Positions 37,008-44,570 of a stretch of DNA of 64,000 bases are shown piece by piece (positions within the stretch are counted from its first letter, which is position 1; each line of letters starts with the position of its first letter). The notes beneath the pieces are model-generated. The model saw only the letters and a program-made list of their open reading frames with translations. It did no database searches and had not been told where the DNA came from. Source of the DNA: Natronorubrum halalkaliphilum. GTDB taxonomy: Archaea; Halobacteriota; Halobacteria; Halobacteriales; Natrialbaceae. The translations under genes were made by a program, and so were the position numbers. The stretch covers positions 134,656-198,655 of the forward strand of contig NZ_WUYX01000053.1 of NCBI RefSeq assembly GCF_009834785.1, in the 5' to 3' direction.

Positions 37008-37373
37008 ATGGCATCGGAACCGGGGTTCGATTCACTCTCGCTCACGAATCAGGTTGTCCTGCTCGGCGTCGCCGAGTTGCACCGATCTGACGAAACGCCA
37101 GTCCAGACGCACGTGCTTCGACACGCGTGTACGACCCAACTCGAGGCGATCGATACCGAGGTCGTCGGCACGCTCACCGAAGCTGACGTTATGCGCTCGT
37201 TGTACCGACTCGAAGACGAGGGGTTCGTCGAGGAAATCGAAACGGACCAGGTGTCACCGACCGGAAAGGGACGGCCGGCATACACCCTCGACGTGCCCGT
37301 CGAGACGGTCTACGAAAGTGTCGACGACGAACTCATCGAGGACGATCTCGACCCAGATCTCGAACTCGAGTGA
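37008..37373 (+). CDS. Winged-helix protein resembling the Cdc6/Orc1 C-terminal domain
   Basis: A 121-residue protein whose SLTNQVVLLGVAEL and VMRSLYRLEDEGFVEEIET match the winged-helix DNA-binding domain at the C-terminus of archaeal Cdc6/Orc1, without the AAA+ ATPase. Haloarchaea encode several such stand-alone proteins, usually called transcription regulators. The acidic tail is haloarchaeal. It is convergent with the HPP gene. The DNA target is unknown. Confidence 0.75.
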   Translation: MASEPGFDSLSLTNQVVLLGVAELHRSDETPVQTHVLRHACTTQLEAIDTEVVGTLTEADVMRSLYRLEDEGFVEEIETDQVSPTGKGRPAYTLDVPVETVYESVDDELIEDDLDPDLELE

Positions 37374-39463: not shown

Positions 39464-40555
39464 ATGGGGTCTTCCGAGGCCGACGAAACGCTAGAGTCCT
39501 ACGGAGCCGACATCGGACAACGGACGGACTCGGCTACGCGAGTCAAAGAGTGGATACTGGTCGATGGGGACCGACTATTCATCGCATCACTCATCTCCCT
39601 TGTGGTCTTTTTGCTGTTTCTCTCGCTGAACGAGATCGGATTCATCTCCTTTACCAACGACGACTCGATCACGCGACTCGCCGGCGGAATGATCGCCGGA
39701 ACGTTTTCGCTGGTCACGCTCGTCGTCTCGATCAACCAGCTGATCCTCTCTCAAGAGTTCGCGTCCGCCGGCGACGCTCGCGATCAACTCGAGGGAGTAC
39801 TGAACTTTCGGACCAACGTCGCCGAAGCGGCGAACGTGCCGGCGAGTCCCGCTTCGCCGTCACGTCTCCTCGAATTGCTTGTCGAGTCAAACCGATCGTA
39901 CGCGAGAGAGCTTGCCGAGGCCGTCAGCGACTACGACGATCCAGAAACGAGGGAGCTGATCGTTCGGTATGCAAACACTGTCGAAGAGAACGCCGATCGC
40001 GTAGACGAAACGCTCGAGCACACGAAATTTGGAACGTTCAAGTCGGTGTCGGCCGCAATCGGCTACGACGCCGCCTGGCAGCTGTATATCGCCAGAAATC
40101 TCCACGGACGGTACGAAGAGTCGCTGTCCGACGAGGCGCTCACGAAATTGGACGCGTTAATAAATTCTCTCGAGCTGTTCGTGACGACTAGGGAACATTT
40201 CAAGACCACCTATCTGCAGAAGGAGCTTACTCGATTCTCGCAACTAACCATCTACACCGGCGTGCCGGCGATTCTATCAGCGATGATGATCGGCTTTATT
40301 TACGCGGATCTCACCGGGCCAACGATCAGCGCCGTCTACCTCCCGGTCGTCATTAGTGCGCTCGTCGCGGTCGTGGTCTTACCTCTCGCCCTCCTCACGG
40401 GGTTTATTCTCCGAACGGCGACCGTCACTCGGCGAACGGCCTCCGTCGGCCCGATGTTGCCCCAGAAGGATCCGGACGCGGGTCCGTTCGACGTCACGGA
40501 CGATACTGTCGATAGCGGTGCCAGTAACAGTAACACCAACAGTAACAGCGGTTAA
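39464..40555 (+). CDS. Four-helix membrane protein, paralogue A
   Basis: A 363-residue membrane protein of a family I do not recognise. Two helices lie near residues 40-60 and 70-95, then a hydrophilic, helical domain of about 170 residues, then two more helices near 285-340. Family hallmarks shared with the genes at 42075 and 43200 are VSINQLILSQE just after helix 2 and REHFKTTYLQKELTRFSQL just before helix 3. A Ser/Asn-rich tail closes it. This is the most diverged of the three. Confidence 0.8.
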   Translation: MGSSEADETLESYGADIGQRTDSATRVKEWILVDGDRLFIASLISLVVFLLFLSLNEIGFISFTNDDSITRLAGGMIAGTFSLVTLVVSINQLILSQEFASAGDARDQLEGVLNFRTNVAEAANVPASPASPSRLLELLVESNRSYARELAEAVSDYDDPETRELIVRYANTVEENADRVDETLEHTKFGTFKSVSAAIGYDAAWQLYIARNLHGRYEESLSDEALTKLDALINSLELFVTTREHFKTTYLQKELTRFSQLTIYTGVPAILSAMMIGFIYADLTGPTISAVYLPVVISALVAVVVLPLALLTGFILRTATVTRRTASVGPMLPQKDPDAGPFDVTDDTVDSGASNSNTNSNSG

Positions 40556-40869
40556 CATATCGGGCCACCGGCCTAACCACCGGTTCCGAAAACGGGTCCG
40601 TGATCGGCGTTCCGGCGTCGTTGCCCTGATCGAACACCGACCGCCCGACGGCCCGTGTGCCAACGTTGATCGTCGCCCTCGAGTTCGCGTCGATGGCCGT
40701 CGGTGTGAGTCGTCTCGTGGCCGCTGTCGTACCGTTCGTCTCGTTCCGAGGGATCATCGTCGATACGGACGCAAATCCCGGTTGGCTCGGGCCCAATGAG
40801 GGCGGATGTGCGGCCTGTGGGCCCCGAATACCGCGAAAGCGTTTTTGACGGTGCGTGGACACCCACAGT
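40556..40869. promoter_or_regulatory. Intergenic region with promoter of the small membrane gene
   Basis: A 314-base gap in which I find no convincing gene; the open frames are Arg-rich or lack coding bias. GTTTTTGACGG at 40841-40851 is centred about 27 bases before the ATG at 40870 and is the likely TATA box of that gene. GGGCCCAATGAGGGCGG and neighbouring sequence show no obvious repeat. Confidence 0.5.
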
Positions 40870-41130
40870 ATGAGCGACGGCGAACGATTCGACGAGGAGG
40901 TGACGCGGAGCGACCTCGTTCACGAGCGGCTTCGCGAATCGCCGCTCAAGCGGTGGATCGTTCTCGACGGCAATCGGTACACGCTCACGGCGCTGTTCTC
41001 GCTCGCCGTCTATCTCGTCTGTATCGGCATCGGCTTCGCCGGCTGGTCTACACGTTCCGGATCGCCCCCGGTCGCGAGCCACACGGCCGACTTCGGGCCG
41101 TTCGTTCCGCGCGTCGATTTCGAAGAATGA
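40870..41130 (+). CDS. Small one-helix protein resembling the N-terminus of paralogues A-C
   Basis: An 86-residue protein with one membrane helix near residues 35-55. The segment ending in LKRWIVLDGNRYTLTALFSL before the helix resembles the start of paralogue A (VKEWILVDGDRLFIASLISL), but there is no LSQE motif, no central domain and no second helix pair. It may be a truncated member of the cluster kept as a functional small protein. A TATA box at -27 suggests that it is expressed. Confidence 0.7.
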   Translation: MSDGERFDEEVTRSDLVHERLRESPLKRWIVLDGNRYTLTALFSLAVYLVCIGIGFAGWSTRSGSPPVASHTADFGPFVPRVDFEE

Positions 41131-41184
41131 GCGCGAAAAGCGCGAAAAGCGGGCGCTGCGGACCGACGGCCGGAACCGATCCGG

Positions 41185-41757
41185 CTACTCTCGAGGCGAG
41201 TCGCCGGCCTCCTCAAACGGGGCGTCGACCGCTTCCGCCTCGGCTGCGATTTCGACGATCAGCGCGAACAGCGCGCCGAGCAACAGGCCGTAAAGCAGGT
41301 GTCCGACGAGCGTCCCGAAGGCGAAGGCCGGGAAGCCGGCGTCGCCGATACCGAGGGACATCCAGATCGGCAACACGATCACCGGAAGGACGGCCCAGAC
41401 CGCCAGCCCGTAGACGAACCCGGCGAGTGTCAGTCGCAGGCCGGGACCCATCGCGTCGATGAAGCCGGTCTCGACGTCCGCCATGAGCGTCCCGAAGATC
41501 GGGCGTCGGGTGACGAGGAGCCCGAAGATGCTCCCGAGGACGAGTCCGTGTCCCAAGTGGAACAGCCACCCGGCGGTGCCGGCGGGCTCCAATCCGTAGA
41601 TCGCGGGAATCCCTTCGGAGATGATCGTCGGATCGACCAGCCACAGGAGGACGCCGAACAGGAGCGAGCCGATCGCCCCGCCGACGGCGCCGCCGACCAA
41701 CCAGTTGAGAGAGCCGCCGATACCGAACGTGGTCGGACTGTTTACTTGGAAGCTCAT
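41185..41757 (-). CDS. Multi-helix membrane protein of unknown function
   Basis: A 190-residue integral membrane protein with about five helices and Gly-rich packing (LNWLVGGAVGGAIGSLLFGV, LFHLGHGLVLGSIFGLL, GTLVGHLLYGLLLGALFALI). Three conserved-looking His residues lie in or next to helices (FHLGHG and VGHLL), which could bind a cofactor or metal. The C-terminus is acidic. I cannot name the family. It lies inside the paralogue cluster but on the opposite strand. Confidence 0.75.
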   Translation of the reverse strand: MSFQVNSPTTFGIGGSLNWLVGGAVGGAIGSLLFGVLLWLVDPTIISEGIPAIYGLEPAGTAGWLFHLGHGLVLGSIFGLLVTRRPIFGTLMADVETGFIDAMGPGLRLTLAGFVYGLAVWAVLPVIVLPIWMSLGIGDAGFPAFAFGTLVGHLLYGLLLGALFALIVEIAAEAEAVDAPFEEAGDSPRE

Positions 41758-42074
41758 CGTACCGATGGAAGGACAACGACTGCAAAAAGTTCGTCACCCG
41801 TTCATCGGTTCTACGGTCCCTTACTATCGACCGGTCACGTCGATTGATCCGGTTATCGCGTATTAACTCGAGCCGGTCGACCGCCATCGACGTTCCCGGC
41901 AATGATTTCGACGGGTGACTGATACGGTTTACTGTAGTCAATGACCGCCGATCACCAGGGACGGGGTCGGTGATCGGCGGTACATAGTTACAGCAATCCG
42001 TATGAAACGACCCCGGAGCCGTCGTCTTCCGGGAAGGGTATTTTGCCCGACGATATCGTCCCGTTCACTCGTTG
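41758..42074. other. Divergent intergenic region containing a repeat element
   Basis: A 317-base gap with no supported gene, between the divergent starts at 41757 and 42075. The middle and right parts are occupied by the repeat element at 41919-42004. The left part contains the short CTGCAAAAAGTTCG stretch, possibly the promoter of the minus-strand gene. Confidence 0.5.
41919..42004. repeat. TGATACGG terminal-repeat element, copy 4
   Basis: Left arm TGATACGGTTTACTGTA begins at 41919-41920 and right arm TTACAGCAATCCGTATGA ends near 42005, around the inverted repeat CCGCCGATCACC / GGTGATCGGCGG. Only a handful of bases differ from copy 3 over about 85 bases, although the two are 23 kb apart. 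This is the only copy lying between two gene starts rather than at a gene end. Confidence 0.85.
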
Positions 42075-43106
42075 ATGAGCGACGCGAACTCGAGCGACGA
42101 TGACGGGTCGGAGGGAAAGGGTAGACTGGGTGGCCCTCGGTTGTGGGTACTGCTGCAACTGAACCGGTGGGCGTTTACGGCGACGATTCTCCTGATCGTG
42201 TACGTTGTCCTCGTCGCGTTCAGTCTGGTCGACCTCACGCCGTTGCGGACGATCGTCGAGAATCAGGACGGGATCGAATTCCTCTTTTCGGCGTTTATCG
42301 GCGCGATCATCACGGGCACCTCGATCGTCGTCACGATCAACCAGCTCGTGCTCTCCCAGGAACTCGGCGCGGTCGGCCAGCAGCGCGATCGAATGCAGGA
42401 GTCGATGGACTTCCGGCAGGACGTCGAGGATACGATCTCCGAGGACGCGAGCCCGCCGGAACCAGCCGCCTTCCTCTTCGAACTCGTCGACGGCGTCTCC
42501 GAGCGGGCAACGGAACTCGAAGAGGAGATGGAAGACGAGCGCGACGAGGAGTTGCGAGAGAAGATCGCCGACTACGTCGAAGACACGACTGGGAACGCAG
42601 AAAGCGTCAAAGAGGACCTCGAAGACGCCCAGTTCGGTTCCTTCGAGGTCATCTGGAACGCGCTCAACTTCAACTACTCGCGGAAGATCTACGACGCGCG
42701 CAAGATCCGCGACGAGCACGACGACTCGCTCTCGGACGAGGCGAGCGAGAAGATCGACCACATGATCGACACGCTGAAACTGTTCGGGCCGGCCCGCGAA
42801 CACTTCAAGACGCTGTACTTCCAGTGGGAGCTGATCAACCTCTCGCGGGCGCTGCTGTACATCTCGGTGCCTGCGCTGACGGTCATGGCGATCATGATCA
42901 TGTACGTCGACGGGAGCACCTTACTGGGGACGACGCTCGGCGTCGACAACCTCGTCTGGATCACCAGTGCGGGCTTCGTCGTCGGCATCTCGCCGTTCGT
43001 CGTCTTCATCACCTACATCCTGCGGATTGCCACCGTCGCCAAACGAACGCTGGCGATGGGGCCGTTCATCCTCCGGGAGTCCGAGCGGGACGAGGATCTG
43101 GGCTGA
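42075..43106 (+). CDS. Four-helix membrane protein, paralogue B
   Basis: A 343-residue relative of the genes at 39464 and 43200. After an acidic leader, helices lie near residues 30-52 and 70-95, the central domain is very rich in Glu and Asp and likely a coiled coil, and two helices follow near 265-320. Hallmarks are VVTINQLVLSQELGAVG after helix 2, PPEPAAF at the start of the central domain, and REHFKTLYFQWELINLSRA before helix 3. The first codon could also be the TTG at 42072, but ATG 42075 is preferred. The function is unknown. Confidence 0.82.
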   Translation: MSDANSSDDDGSEGKGRLGGPRLWVLLQLNRWAFTATILLIVYVVLVAFSLVDLTPLRTIVENQDGIEFLFSAFIGAIITGTSIVVTINQLVLSQELGAVGQQRDRMQESMDFRQDVEDTISEDASPPEPAAFLFELVDGVSERATELEEEMEDERDEELREKIADYVEDTTGNAESVKEDLEDAQFGSFEVIWNALNFNYSRKIYDARKIRDEHDDSLSDEASEKIDHMIDTLKLFGPAREHFKTLYFQWELINLSRALLYISVPALTVMAIMIMYVDGSTLLGTTLGVDNLVWITSAGFVVGISPFVVFITYILRIATVAKRTLAMGPFILRESERDEDLG

Positions 43107-43199
43107 TTCGCCCCGCTGTCCGGACACTGAATCACCTCGCGTCGCTGGCTGCGAGCCTGCCGTAGCTATTTCCGCCCAATCGTGGTATCCCCGCGAGCA

Positions 43200-44237
43200 A
43201 TGAGCGGCGACGGCTCCCAGCCCAGCGACACGATGGCCGAGCGCAGCGAGGATCCCACCTGGAAACACGAGCTTCTACTGAACGCGAACCGGTGGCTCGT
43301 CACCGCGGTTCTCATGCTGTTCGTCTTCGTCGGTCTGCTCGTCATCAGCGAGGGGAGCCCCGTCTCGCTTCGGGCGCTGATGGGCGAAAAGGAGCCCGTC
43401 CACACCCTCTTCCAGGCGCTCGTCACGGCGCTGATCACCGGCGTCACCCTCGTTGTGACCATCAACTCGCTGGTGCTATCCCAGGAGCTCGGAGCCGTCG
43501 AAGACCAGCGCGGACGACTCGAGGGAGCCATCGACTTCCGCGAGGACGTCGAAAGTTCGATCGACGCGCCGATCAGCCCGCCGGAGCCGGCGTCGTTCGT
43601 CCAGTCGATCATCGCCGCCTCCGAGGAGCGCGCGACCGACTTTCGCGAGGCCGTCTCCGACAGCCGCGACGAGGAACTCAAAGACCGCGTCGACGACTTC
43701 GTCGACAACCTGACGACCCACGCCGATTCGATCCGGGACGATCTCGGCAACGCACAGTTTGGGACCTACGACGTCGTCAAAGCCGCACTGGACTACAACT
43801 ACTCCTGGAAGATTTTCCGGGCGCGGCGGATCAAGAACGCCCACGTCGACTCCTTCGACGACGAGGCCCGCGAGGCCTACGACGAACTCCTCGAGTCGCT
43901 CAAACTGTTCGGCCTCGCCCGCGAACACTTCAAGACGCTGTACTTCCAGTGGGAGCTGATCAACCTCTCGCGGGCGATGATGTACGTCGCCGTTCCCGCG
44001 CTGGTCGTGGCGATGTCAATGTTGCTCTTTTTCGACGCCGACGCCGTGACCGGAACCGTACTCGGCATCGACGCGATCGTCTGGATCGTCGCCGTCACCG
44101 CGACCATCGCCGTCACGCCGTTCCTCCTGTTGATCGCCTTTATCCTGCGGATCGCGACGATGGCCAAGCGGACGCTGGCAATCGGTCCGTTTATCCTGCG
44201 GGACTCGAGTCGGGGCGAGGAGATCGACTGGGAGTAG
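43200..44237 (+). CDS. Four-helix membrane protein, paralogue C
   Basis: A 345-residue close relative of paralogue B, 93 bases downstream on the same strand and probably co-transcribed. It shares VVTINSLVLSQELGAVEDQR, PPEPASF, FGTYDVVKAALDYNYSWKI and the block REHFKTLYFQWELINLSRA before helix 3. The C-terminus (KRTLAIGPFILRDS) also matches B (KRTLAMGPFILRES). The ATG at 43200 is preferred over the GTG at 43182. The strong conservation of the block before helix 3 suggests a functional site. Confidence 0.85.
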   Translation: MSGDGSQPSDTMAERSEDPTWKHELLLNANRWLVTAVLMLFVFVGLLVISEGSPVSLRALMGEKEPVHTLFQALVTALITGVTLVVTINSLVLSQELGAVEDQRGRLEGAIDFREDVESSIDAPISPPEPASFVQSIIAASEERATDFREAVSDSRDEELKDRVDDFVDNLTTHADSIRDDLGNAQFGTYDVVKAALDYNYSWKIFRARRIKNAHVDSFDDEAREAYDELLESLKLFGLAREHFKTLYFQWELINLSRAMMYVAVPALVVAMSMLLFFDADAVTGTVLGIDAIVWIVAVTATIAVTPFLLLIAFILRIATMAKRTLAIGPFILRDSSRGEEIDWE

Positions 44238-44285: not shown

Positions 44286-44570
44286 ATGACGAGTACCGCG
44301 TCCGATACCGTTCGCGTCTGGTTAGTCGAACGAACGTACTCCGACGACGAGCAGAATCTGATCATCCTCACTTACGCGACCACAGACGGCGAGCGCTACT
44401 TCCGCAAGGAACGCGCACTCACCTCGTTTACGGACGCTCGAGACACAACCGCCGCGGTCGACGCCGATCCCGATAATCTCGGGAGCGTCGACGATTCGGA
44501 TCTACGGGAGCAGTACGCCGCCGAAGCCCGACGAATGGCGGATGCTCACGATCCTGACGACGTCATCTAA
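44286..44570 (+). CDS. Small conserved-looking haloarchaeal protein
   Basis: A 94-residue acidic soluble protein (MTSTASDTVRVWLVERTYSD). The first half looks like a beta-sheet (VRVWLVERTYSDDEQNLIIL, YATTDGERYFRKER) and the second a helix ending DAHDPDDVI. It follows paralogue C by 48 bases on the same strand and could be co-transcribed. No recognised domain. Confidence 0.65.
   Translation: MTSTASDTVRVWLVERTYSDDEQNLIILTYATTDGERYFRKERALTSFTDARDTTAAVDADPDNLGSVDDSDLREQYAAEARRMADAHDPDDVI

Follow-up and report, generated by a model that had tools for sequence, protein, structure and literature searches.

The locus and its neighborhood

The 64,000-nucleotide stretch of Natronorubrum halalkaliphilum DNA analyzed here (the window) contains a cluster of three paralogous genes, A, B, and C (Table 1), which the initial annotation singled out as an undescribed membrane protein family accompanied by a truncated relative. 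The cluster is real: the three genes are open, full-length frames with 31-48% mutual identity that can be aligned end to end, and a whole-genome search with a profile built from the three refound them at E-values of 1e-165 to 1e-188, far beyond chance. Five further full-length copies were identified by profile search on other contigs of the same genome, and the nearest named relative of the host is Natronorubrum texcoconense (92% for paralogue C).

What had been missed is that the cluster forms one end of a larger neighborhood that starts with pspA, 2.6 kb upstream of the cluster, with four genes intervening. The gene for a small winged-helix-like protein lies on the same strand as pspA, at a distance of 104-288 bp, in 30 loci (some of which represent the same genome fetched repeatedly). 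The helix-turn-helix (HTH) matches of this protein in Pfam are only sub-threshold; it is a possible regulator. A search for RNA elements between 36 and 46 kb of the window found none.

Table 1. Features of the pspA-paralogue neighborhood, in window coordinates
Feature	Position	Strand	Evidence and remarks
pspA, PspA/IM30 (Vipp1, ESCRT-III-like) protein, 281 aa	36043..36888	+	Pfam PspA_IM30 E=1.5e-34; conserved upstream neighbor of the family
Small winged-helix-like protein, 121 aa	37008..37373	+	Directly downstream of pspA in Natrialbaceae
Paralogue A	39464..40555	+	Natrialbaceae-specific clade (tree); profile E=1.4e-165; alignment
NQLILSQE block, paralogue A	39734..39757	+	Cytoplasmic end of helix 2
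REHFKT block, paralogue A (REHFKTTYLQKELTRFSQL)	40190..40246	+	Start of helix 3
Apparent remnant of fourth paralogue (helix 1 joined to C-terminal tail)	40870..41130	+	N- and C-terminal parts align with the same intact homologues; DNA alignment
Deletion junction	41039..41042	+	About 757 bp lost vs Halostagnicola homologue
1-bp insertion in C run	41065-41069	+	Restores frame
DUF6789-like membrane protein between paralogues	41185..41757	-	Pfam E=1.3e-5, just under cut-off
Paralogue B	42075..43106	+	Alignment, profile, tree
NQLVLSQE block, paralogue B	42339..42362	+	
REHFKTLYFQWELINLSRA block, paralogue B	42795..42851	+	
Paralogue C	43200..44237	+	Closest to family consensus; structure modeled; alignment, profile, tree
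NSLVLSQE block, paralogue C	43464..43487	+	
REHFKTLYFQWELINLSRA block, paralogue C	43920..43976	+	
94-aa protein	44286..44570	+	52 bp downstream of paralogue C; kept there in many Natrialbaceae

A probable remnant of a fourth paralogue

The small protein encoded at 40870 had been taken to resemble only the N-terminus of the paralogues and to be a potential modulator of them. The search of 125 family genomes changes this picture. At their best, matches of the first 67 residues to intact homologues of ~350 residues reach 61-69%, and the last 20 residues (VASHTADFGPFVPRVDFEE and the preceding P), which correspond to the family C-terminal tail, match the far end of those same open frames at 75-85%. 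Compared to a Halostagnicola homologue that occupies the equivalent position between two other copies, the DNA is 84% and 86% identical on the two sides of the junction, about 757 bp are absent internally, one extra C is present, and the stretch past the junction reads out of frame. Because of this internal loss and the 1-bp indel relative to an intact homologue, the open reading frame (ORF) looks like a deletion remnant rather than a designed modulator.

In the other 124 family genomes, this form was not found. In another genome (G074), a member of this subfamily has independently been reduced to an N-terminal fragment, so that decay of this gene recurs. Codon-position divergence in the N-terminal part of the ORF is normal, with the same pattern as in intact homologues, which implies either that the deletion occurred recently or that the stub continues to be read. 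If the ORF encoded a functional single-helix microprotein modulating the full-length paralogues, this pattern and the compensating indel that restores the frame would be accounted for, but the codon pattern follows just as readily from a recent deletion, and given the restriction of this form to a single genome, the out-of-frame stretch, and the recurrent decay, we consider such a role very improbable. An alternative in-frame GTG start at 40855 is possible for this ORF.

Membrane architecture and conserved blocks

The proposed layout of the family, with two helices followed by a helical acidic domain and two further helices, is borne out by family-average hydropathy and two independent AlphaFold2 models (pLDDT 82 and 84, pTM 0.74 and 0.77). 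In the numbering of paralogue C, hydropathy and the model place the four helices at about 32-53, 69-93, 258-279, and 291-315. The charge bias corresponds to an N-in/C-in orientation, with basic residues flanking helices 1 and 4 on one side and acidic short loops, and the central helical domain is predicted to be cytoplasmic.

The two conserved blocks are indeed found at those ends of helices 2 and 3 that face the cytoplasm, and are strongly conserved, but they are not invariant as originally described, being represented by NSLVLSQE in paralogue C and REHFKTTYLQKELTRFSQL in paralogue A. Conservation across the family peaks where helices 2, 3, and 4 reach the cytoplasm: the three segments at this interface (89-100, 236-257, and 316-331) score ~3.6 bits. 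Among the helices, helix 2 ranks first with 3.0 bits, and values of 1.9-2.6 bits are seen in the other three helices, the loops, and the cytoplasmic domain. P307 and R317 are invariant and P266 is nearly so, all in or at helices 3 and 4, and G329 and K245 are invariant or almost invariant as well. Helix 2 carries a Thr/Ser stripe (T80, T83, T87, and S94); 94-100% of 103 sequences have polar residues at these positions (p=0.04 for the polar moment). Such a pattern is expected of a membrane bundle coupled to a cytoplasmic domain and is compatible with either a gate or a docking surface as the output. The conserved cytoplasmic belt and the hydroxyl-lined helix 2 fit the earlier suggestion of a gated pore or a membrane sensor.

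Distribution and relationship to known families

The family is nearly universal among Halobacteria and often multicopy: it was detected in 274 of the 292 genomes sampled from this class, including every one of the Natrialbaceae (125/125), and copies also reside on megaplasmids. A phylum-wide draw of 295 genomes yielded a single positive (G360) outside the order of the window, and one Nanohaloarchaeon also carries the family. In the tree, the members from both these genomes are nested among haloarchaeal sequences, which suggests that they were acquired by transfer. A viral or phage origin of the family was considered and rejected, as no relatives were found in IMG/VR or phage records; the known-family search in the viral run matched nothing.

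No Pfam, NCBIfam, or PADLOC family and no PDB sequence is matched by the family, and in Foldseek comparisons of two independent models to the PDB, no solved structure was matched at E<=0.001 along the whole chain; the hits were partial and of a generic helical-bundle kind. The family is thus undescribed in these databases, as initially supposed: it neither gives a confident match to a known characterized family nor dissolves into scattered homologues devoid of the block pattern. The CorA, MotA/ExbB/ZorA, and ferritin-like proteins resemble it in membrane and/or helical-bundle architecture and give weak local profile matches, but these are under the curated cut-offs or limited to single members, and none is accompanied by a fold match at E<=0.001. 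CorA reaches 10.2 bits against a Pfam cut-off of 27 and is weakly matched in 4 of 103 members; MotA/ExbB/TolQ (ZorA) is matched by one member of 103, at E=0.0013 in PADLOC, and is not among the leading Pfam matches. An Amt-type ammonium transporter was rejected as well, given the lack of any Amt profile match and the presence of four helices as opposed to 11.

Linkage to pspA and its limits

Neighbor clustering placed a PspA/IM30 gene beside 62 of 92 family-centered loci, in 51 of these upstream on the same strand, and in many single-copy genera, the gap between pspA and the family gene is under 160 bp. When separately obtained coordinates of the two genes were paired in 53 non-Natrialbaceae genomes, pspA lay within 3.3 kb of a family gene in 31 genomes, where chance predicts about 0.2% per genome (the genomes are related to one another and hence not independent observations, so that the computed P value is an overstatement); in 15 of the 53, from 10 genera and 4 families, pspA is directly adjacent upstream on the same strand. 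In one genus, pspA lies about 90-190 bp upstream in all 12 family-positive genomes. Conversely, searches centered on pspA recovered the family gene as the next one downstream in several unrelated genera; in Natrialbaceae, the small winged-helix-like gene comes first.

The linkage is by no means universal. In 22 of the 53 genomes outside Natrialbaceae, the family gene is far from pspA, and in Haloarcula-type loci, the two genes are on opposite strands. Some family-negative genomes do carry PspA, and none was found in G360 or the Nanohaloarchaeon, the two family-positive genomes outside Halobacteria. Presence-absence co-occurrence is uninformative because both PspA and the family are nearly universal. 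Part of the linkage may reflect general synteny, given that the same region holds conserved housekeeping neighbors, namely, CTP synthase, Thr-tRNA synthetase, and a hydrolase. Taken to its conclusion, this would mean that only gene order was inherited and that the role of the cluster is unrelated to PspA, for example, in lipid handling or envelope maintenance. Together with the conserved neighbors, the unlinked genomes, the two family-positive genomes without PspA, and the megaplasmid paralogues point in this direction, but direct same-strand adjacency held across such a range of genera and families, and recovered also when starting from pspA, argues against it; we regard a link through inherited gene order only, with an unrelated role of the cluster, as rather unlikely.

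In Haloferax volcanii, the amount of PspA rises under salt stress, and a 2022 survey reported a membrane protein encoded downstream of pspA, HVO_2637, with weak bPH_4 and EphA2_TM matches (PMC9239133). The location of HVO_2637, a haloarchaeal membrane protein, is the same as that of the family described here, and it is possibly a member, although bPH_4 and EphA2_TM are not among the leading Pfam matches of the family. In bacteria, the membrane partners of PspA, namely, PspB, PspC, LiaI-LiaF-TM, and PspM, are unrelated proteins in different lineages (PMC11237479, PMC9239133). Like these, the present family consists of integral-membrane proteins encoded beside pspA; unlike them, it has four helices arranged around a large cytoplasmic helical domain and is confined to halophilic archaea. 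The window proteins have no Pfam match to PspB, PspC, LiaF, or PspM, and none of these appears among the leading matches (E<=0.5) of the 103 members.

A sister subfamily coupled to sP36-like proteins

The tree contains a well-supported sister clade that includes copies from two other contigs of the same genome and several plasmid copies. Here, a gene encoding a protein of ~68 aa is located directly upstream of the family gene, with a 4-nt overlap of the coding sequences in annotated plasmids. The constant small companion of this subfamily is an sP36/DUF4177-like protein, not a stub of the 40870 type; it passes the cut-off of the NCBIfam sP36 model NF053529 (61 and 54.4 bits against 50). Similar proteins were detected in 62 of the 145 genomes in the class-level search, and in each of the best 30 loci, a family gene follows on the same strand at a distance of no more than 110 bp; because these loci are the top hits of a query taken from a linked locus, more distant homologues may behave differently. 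The window cluster itself has no sP36-like gene; the sP36-linked subfamily is the sister one, located elsewhere in the genome.

The sP36 protein of Methanosarcina mazei moves to the membrane, where it binds and inhibits the ammonium transporter AmtB1 (PMC10714827). By analogy, the small cytosolic protein of the same family, whose gene immediately precedes that of the sister-subfamily member, may dock on its neighbor, although the latter is not an Amt but a protein of about 345 aa with four helices rather than 11, and the window cluster lacks such a gene. Haloarchaeal homologues of sP36 have so far been read via AmtB1 control, whereas all of the homologues most similar to our query are linked to the family described here.

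These observations bring up the scenario in which the family assembles into an oligomeric channel or transporter. A soluble partner would gate or plug its mouth on the cytoplasmic side, this partner being an sP36-like protein in one subfamily and PspA or nothing elsewhere, and helix 2, with its conserved Thr, Ser, Asn, and Gln residues, would face the pore. The high conservation and hydroxyl stripe of helix 2, the (nearly) invariant residues of helices 3 and 4, and the tight coupling to a homologue of a known transporter-binding protein are all compatible with such an arrangement. Nevertheless, no known channel or transporter is matched by sequence or fold, the polar stripe is statistically weak and fits helix packing too, and the sP36-linked subfamily differs from that in the window, which makes a channel or transporter somewhat unlikely.

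A putative partner of membrane-stress proteins

The links to pspA and to sP36-like genes jointly suggest a membrane protein that acts together with a soluble protein of the cytosol, and we consider it more probable than not that the family works with such a partner encoded beside it. More tentatively, the partner of the window cluster could be PspA, acting in a membrane-stress role. On this reading, which we favor over the alternatives, though with caution, the family might be a lineage-specific integral-membrane protein that cooperates with a cytosolic membrane-stress protein, PspA in this lineage. Under this partnership with PspA, the helices would respond to the state of the membrane, be it tension, potential, or salt, and the conserved cytoplasmic belt would relay that state to the cytoplasmic helical domain, which would dock or release PspA; PspA, in turn, would coat and stabilize the membrane. 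In the sister subfamily, the docking role would be taken by the sP36-like small protein.

A far-reaching generalization, which appears rather unlikely at this stage, is that the family represents a haloarchaea-specific, partner-gated membrane class that serves the archaeal PspA stress response as its core membrane component and, in its sister branch, is targeted by small proteins of the sP36 type. If so, the targets of sP36 homologues in haloarchaea would be members of this family instead of ammonium transporters. Regardless, a nearly universal, uncharacterized membrane protein encoded beside pspA is a direct candidate partner of PspA, and both partner ideas can be tested in genetically tractable, single-copy haloarchaea.

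With respect to the evolution of the cluster itself, it seems that Natrialbaceae multiplied the gene, which would have produced the three tandem versions and the decayed fourth. Paralogues B and C share an identical block of 60 nt, for which gene conversion was considered and rejected: identity within the genome (54.4/57) equals that between genomes (53.8/57), and accordingly, the identity of the block is explained by codon bias combined with protein constraint.

Small genes flanking the paralogues and a sister-subfamily unit

Throughout Natrialbaceae, the pspA gene is immediately followed by a gene for a winged-helix-like small protein, a possible regulator of this gene block. At the other end, many Natrialbaceae encode a 94-aa protein with no family assigned 48-113 bp beyond paralogue C on its downstream side; in Haladaptatus it likewise lies downstream, at ~4.5 kb. 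In the sister subfamily, the family gene is paired with one for an sP36/DUF4177-like small protein as a two-gene unit; this holds at 30 of 30 loci among the listed matches of a search with the small protein, and the two genes overlap by 4 nt in the annotated plasmid copies.

Probable transfer, sequence identity and decay

Two genomes outside Halobacteria, Nanohaloarchaeon M3_22 and G360, each carry a single four-helix family copy; both copies group inside haloarchaeal sequences and were probably acquired by halophile-to-halophile transfer. PspA is absent from both genomes. Paralogues B and C share 60 identical nt despite only 48% protein identity; gene conversion was tested as the source and rejected, because codon bias and protein constraint account for the identity. 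Separately, genome G074 holds a second decayed fragment, retaining only the N-terminus.

Coordinates of the features discussed
Feature	Position	Remark
Winged-helix-like small protein	window 37008-37373	
Identical block, paralogue B	window 42795-42851	
Identical block, paralogue C	window 43920-43976	
94-aa protein	window 44286-44570	
Family copy, Nanohaloarchaeon M3_22	L093:5956-6996	
Family copy, G360	L145:7040-8086	
Sister-subfamily/sP36-like unit, own genome	L008:1504-2707 (C54); L009:1383-2599 (C4)	
Sister-subfamily/sP36-like unit, further loci	L212-L216; L217-L246	
Decayed N-terminal fragment	L210 (G074:C4:115500-119000)	subfamily of 40870 remnant
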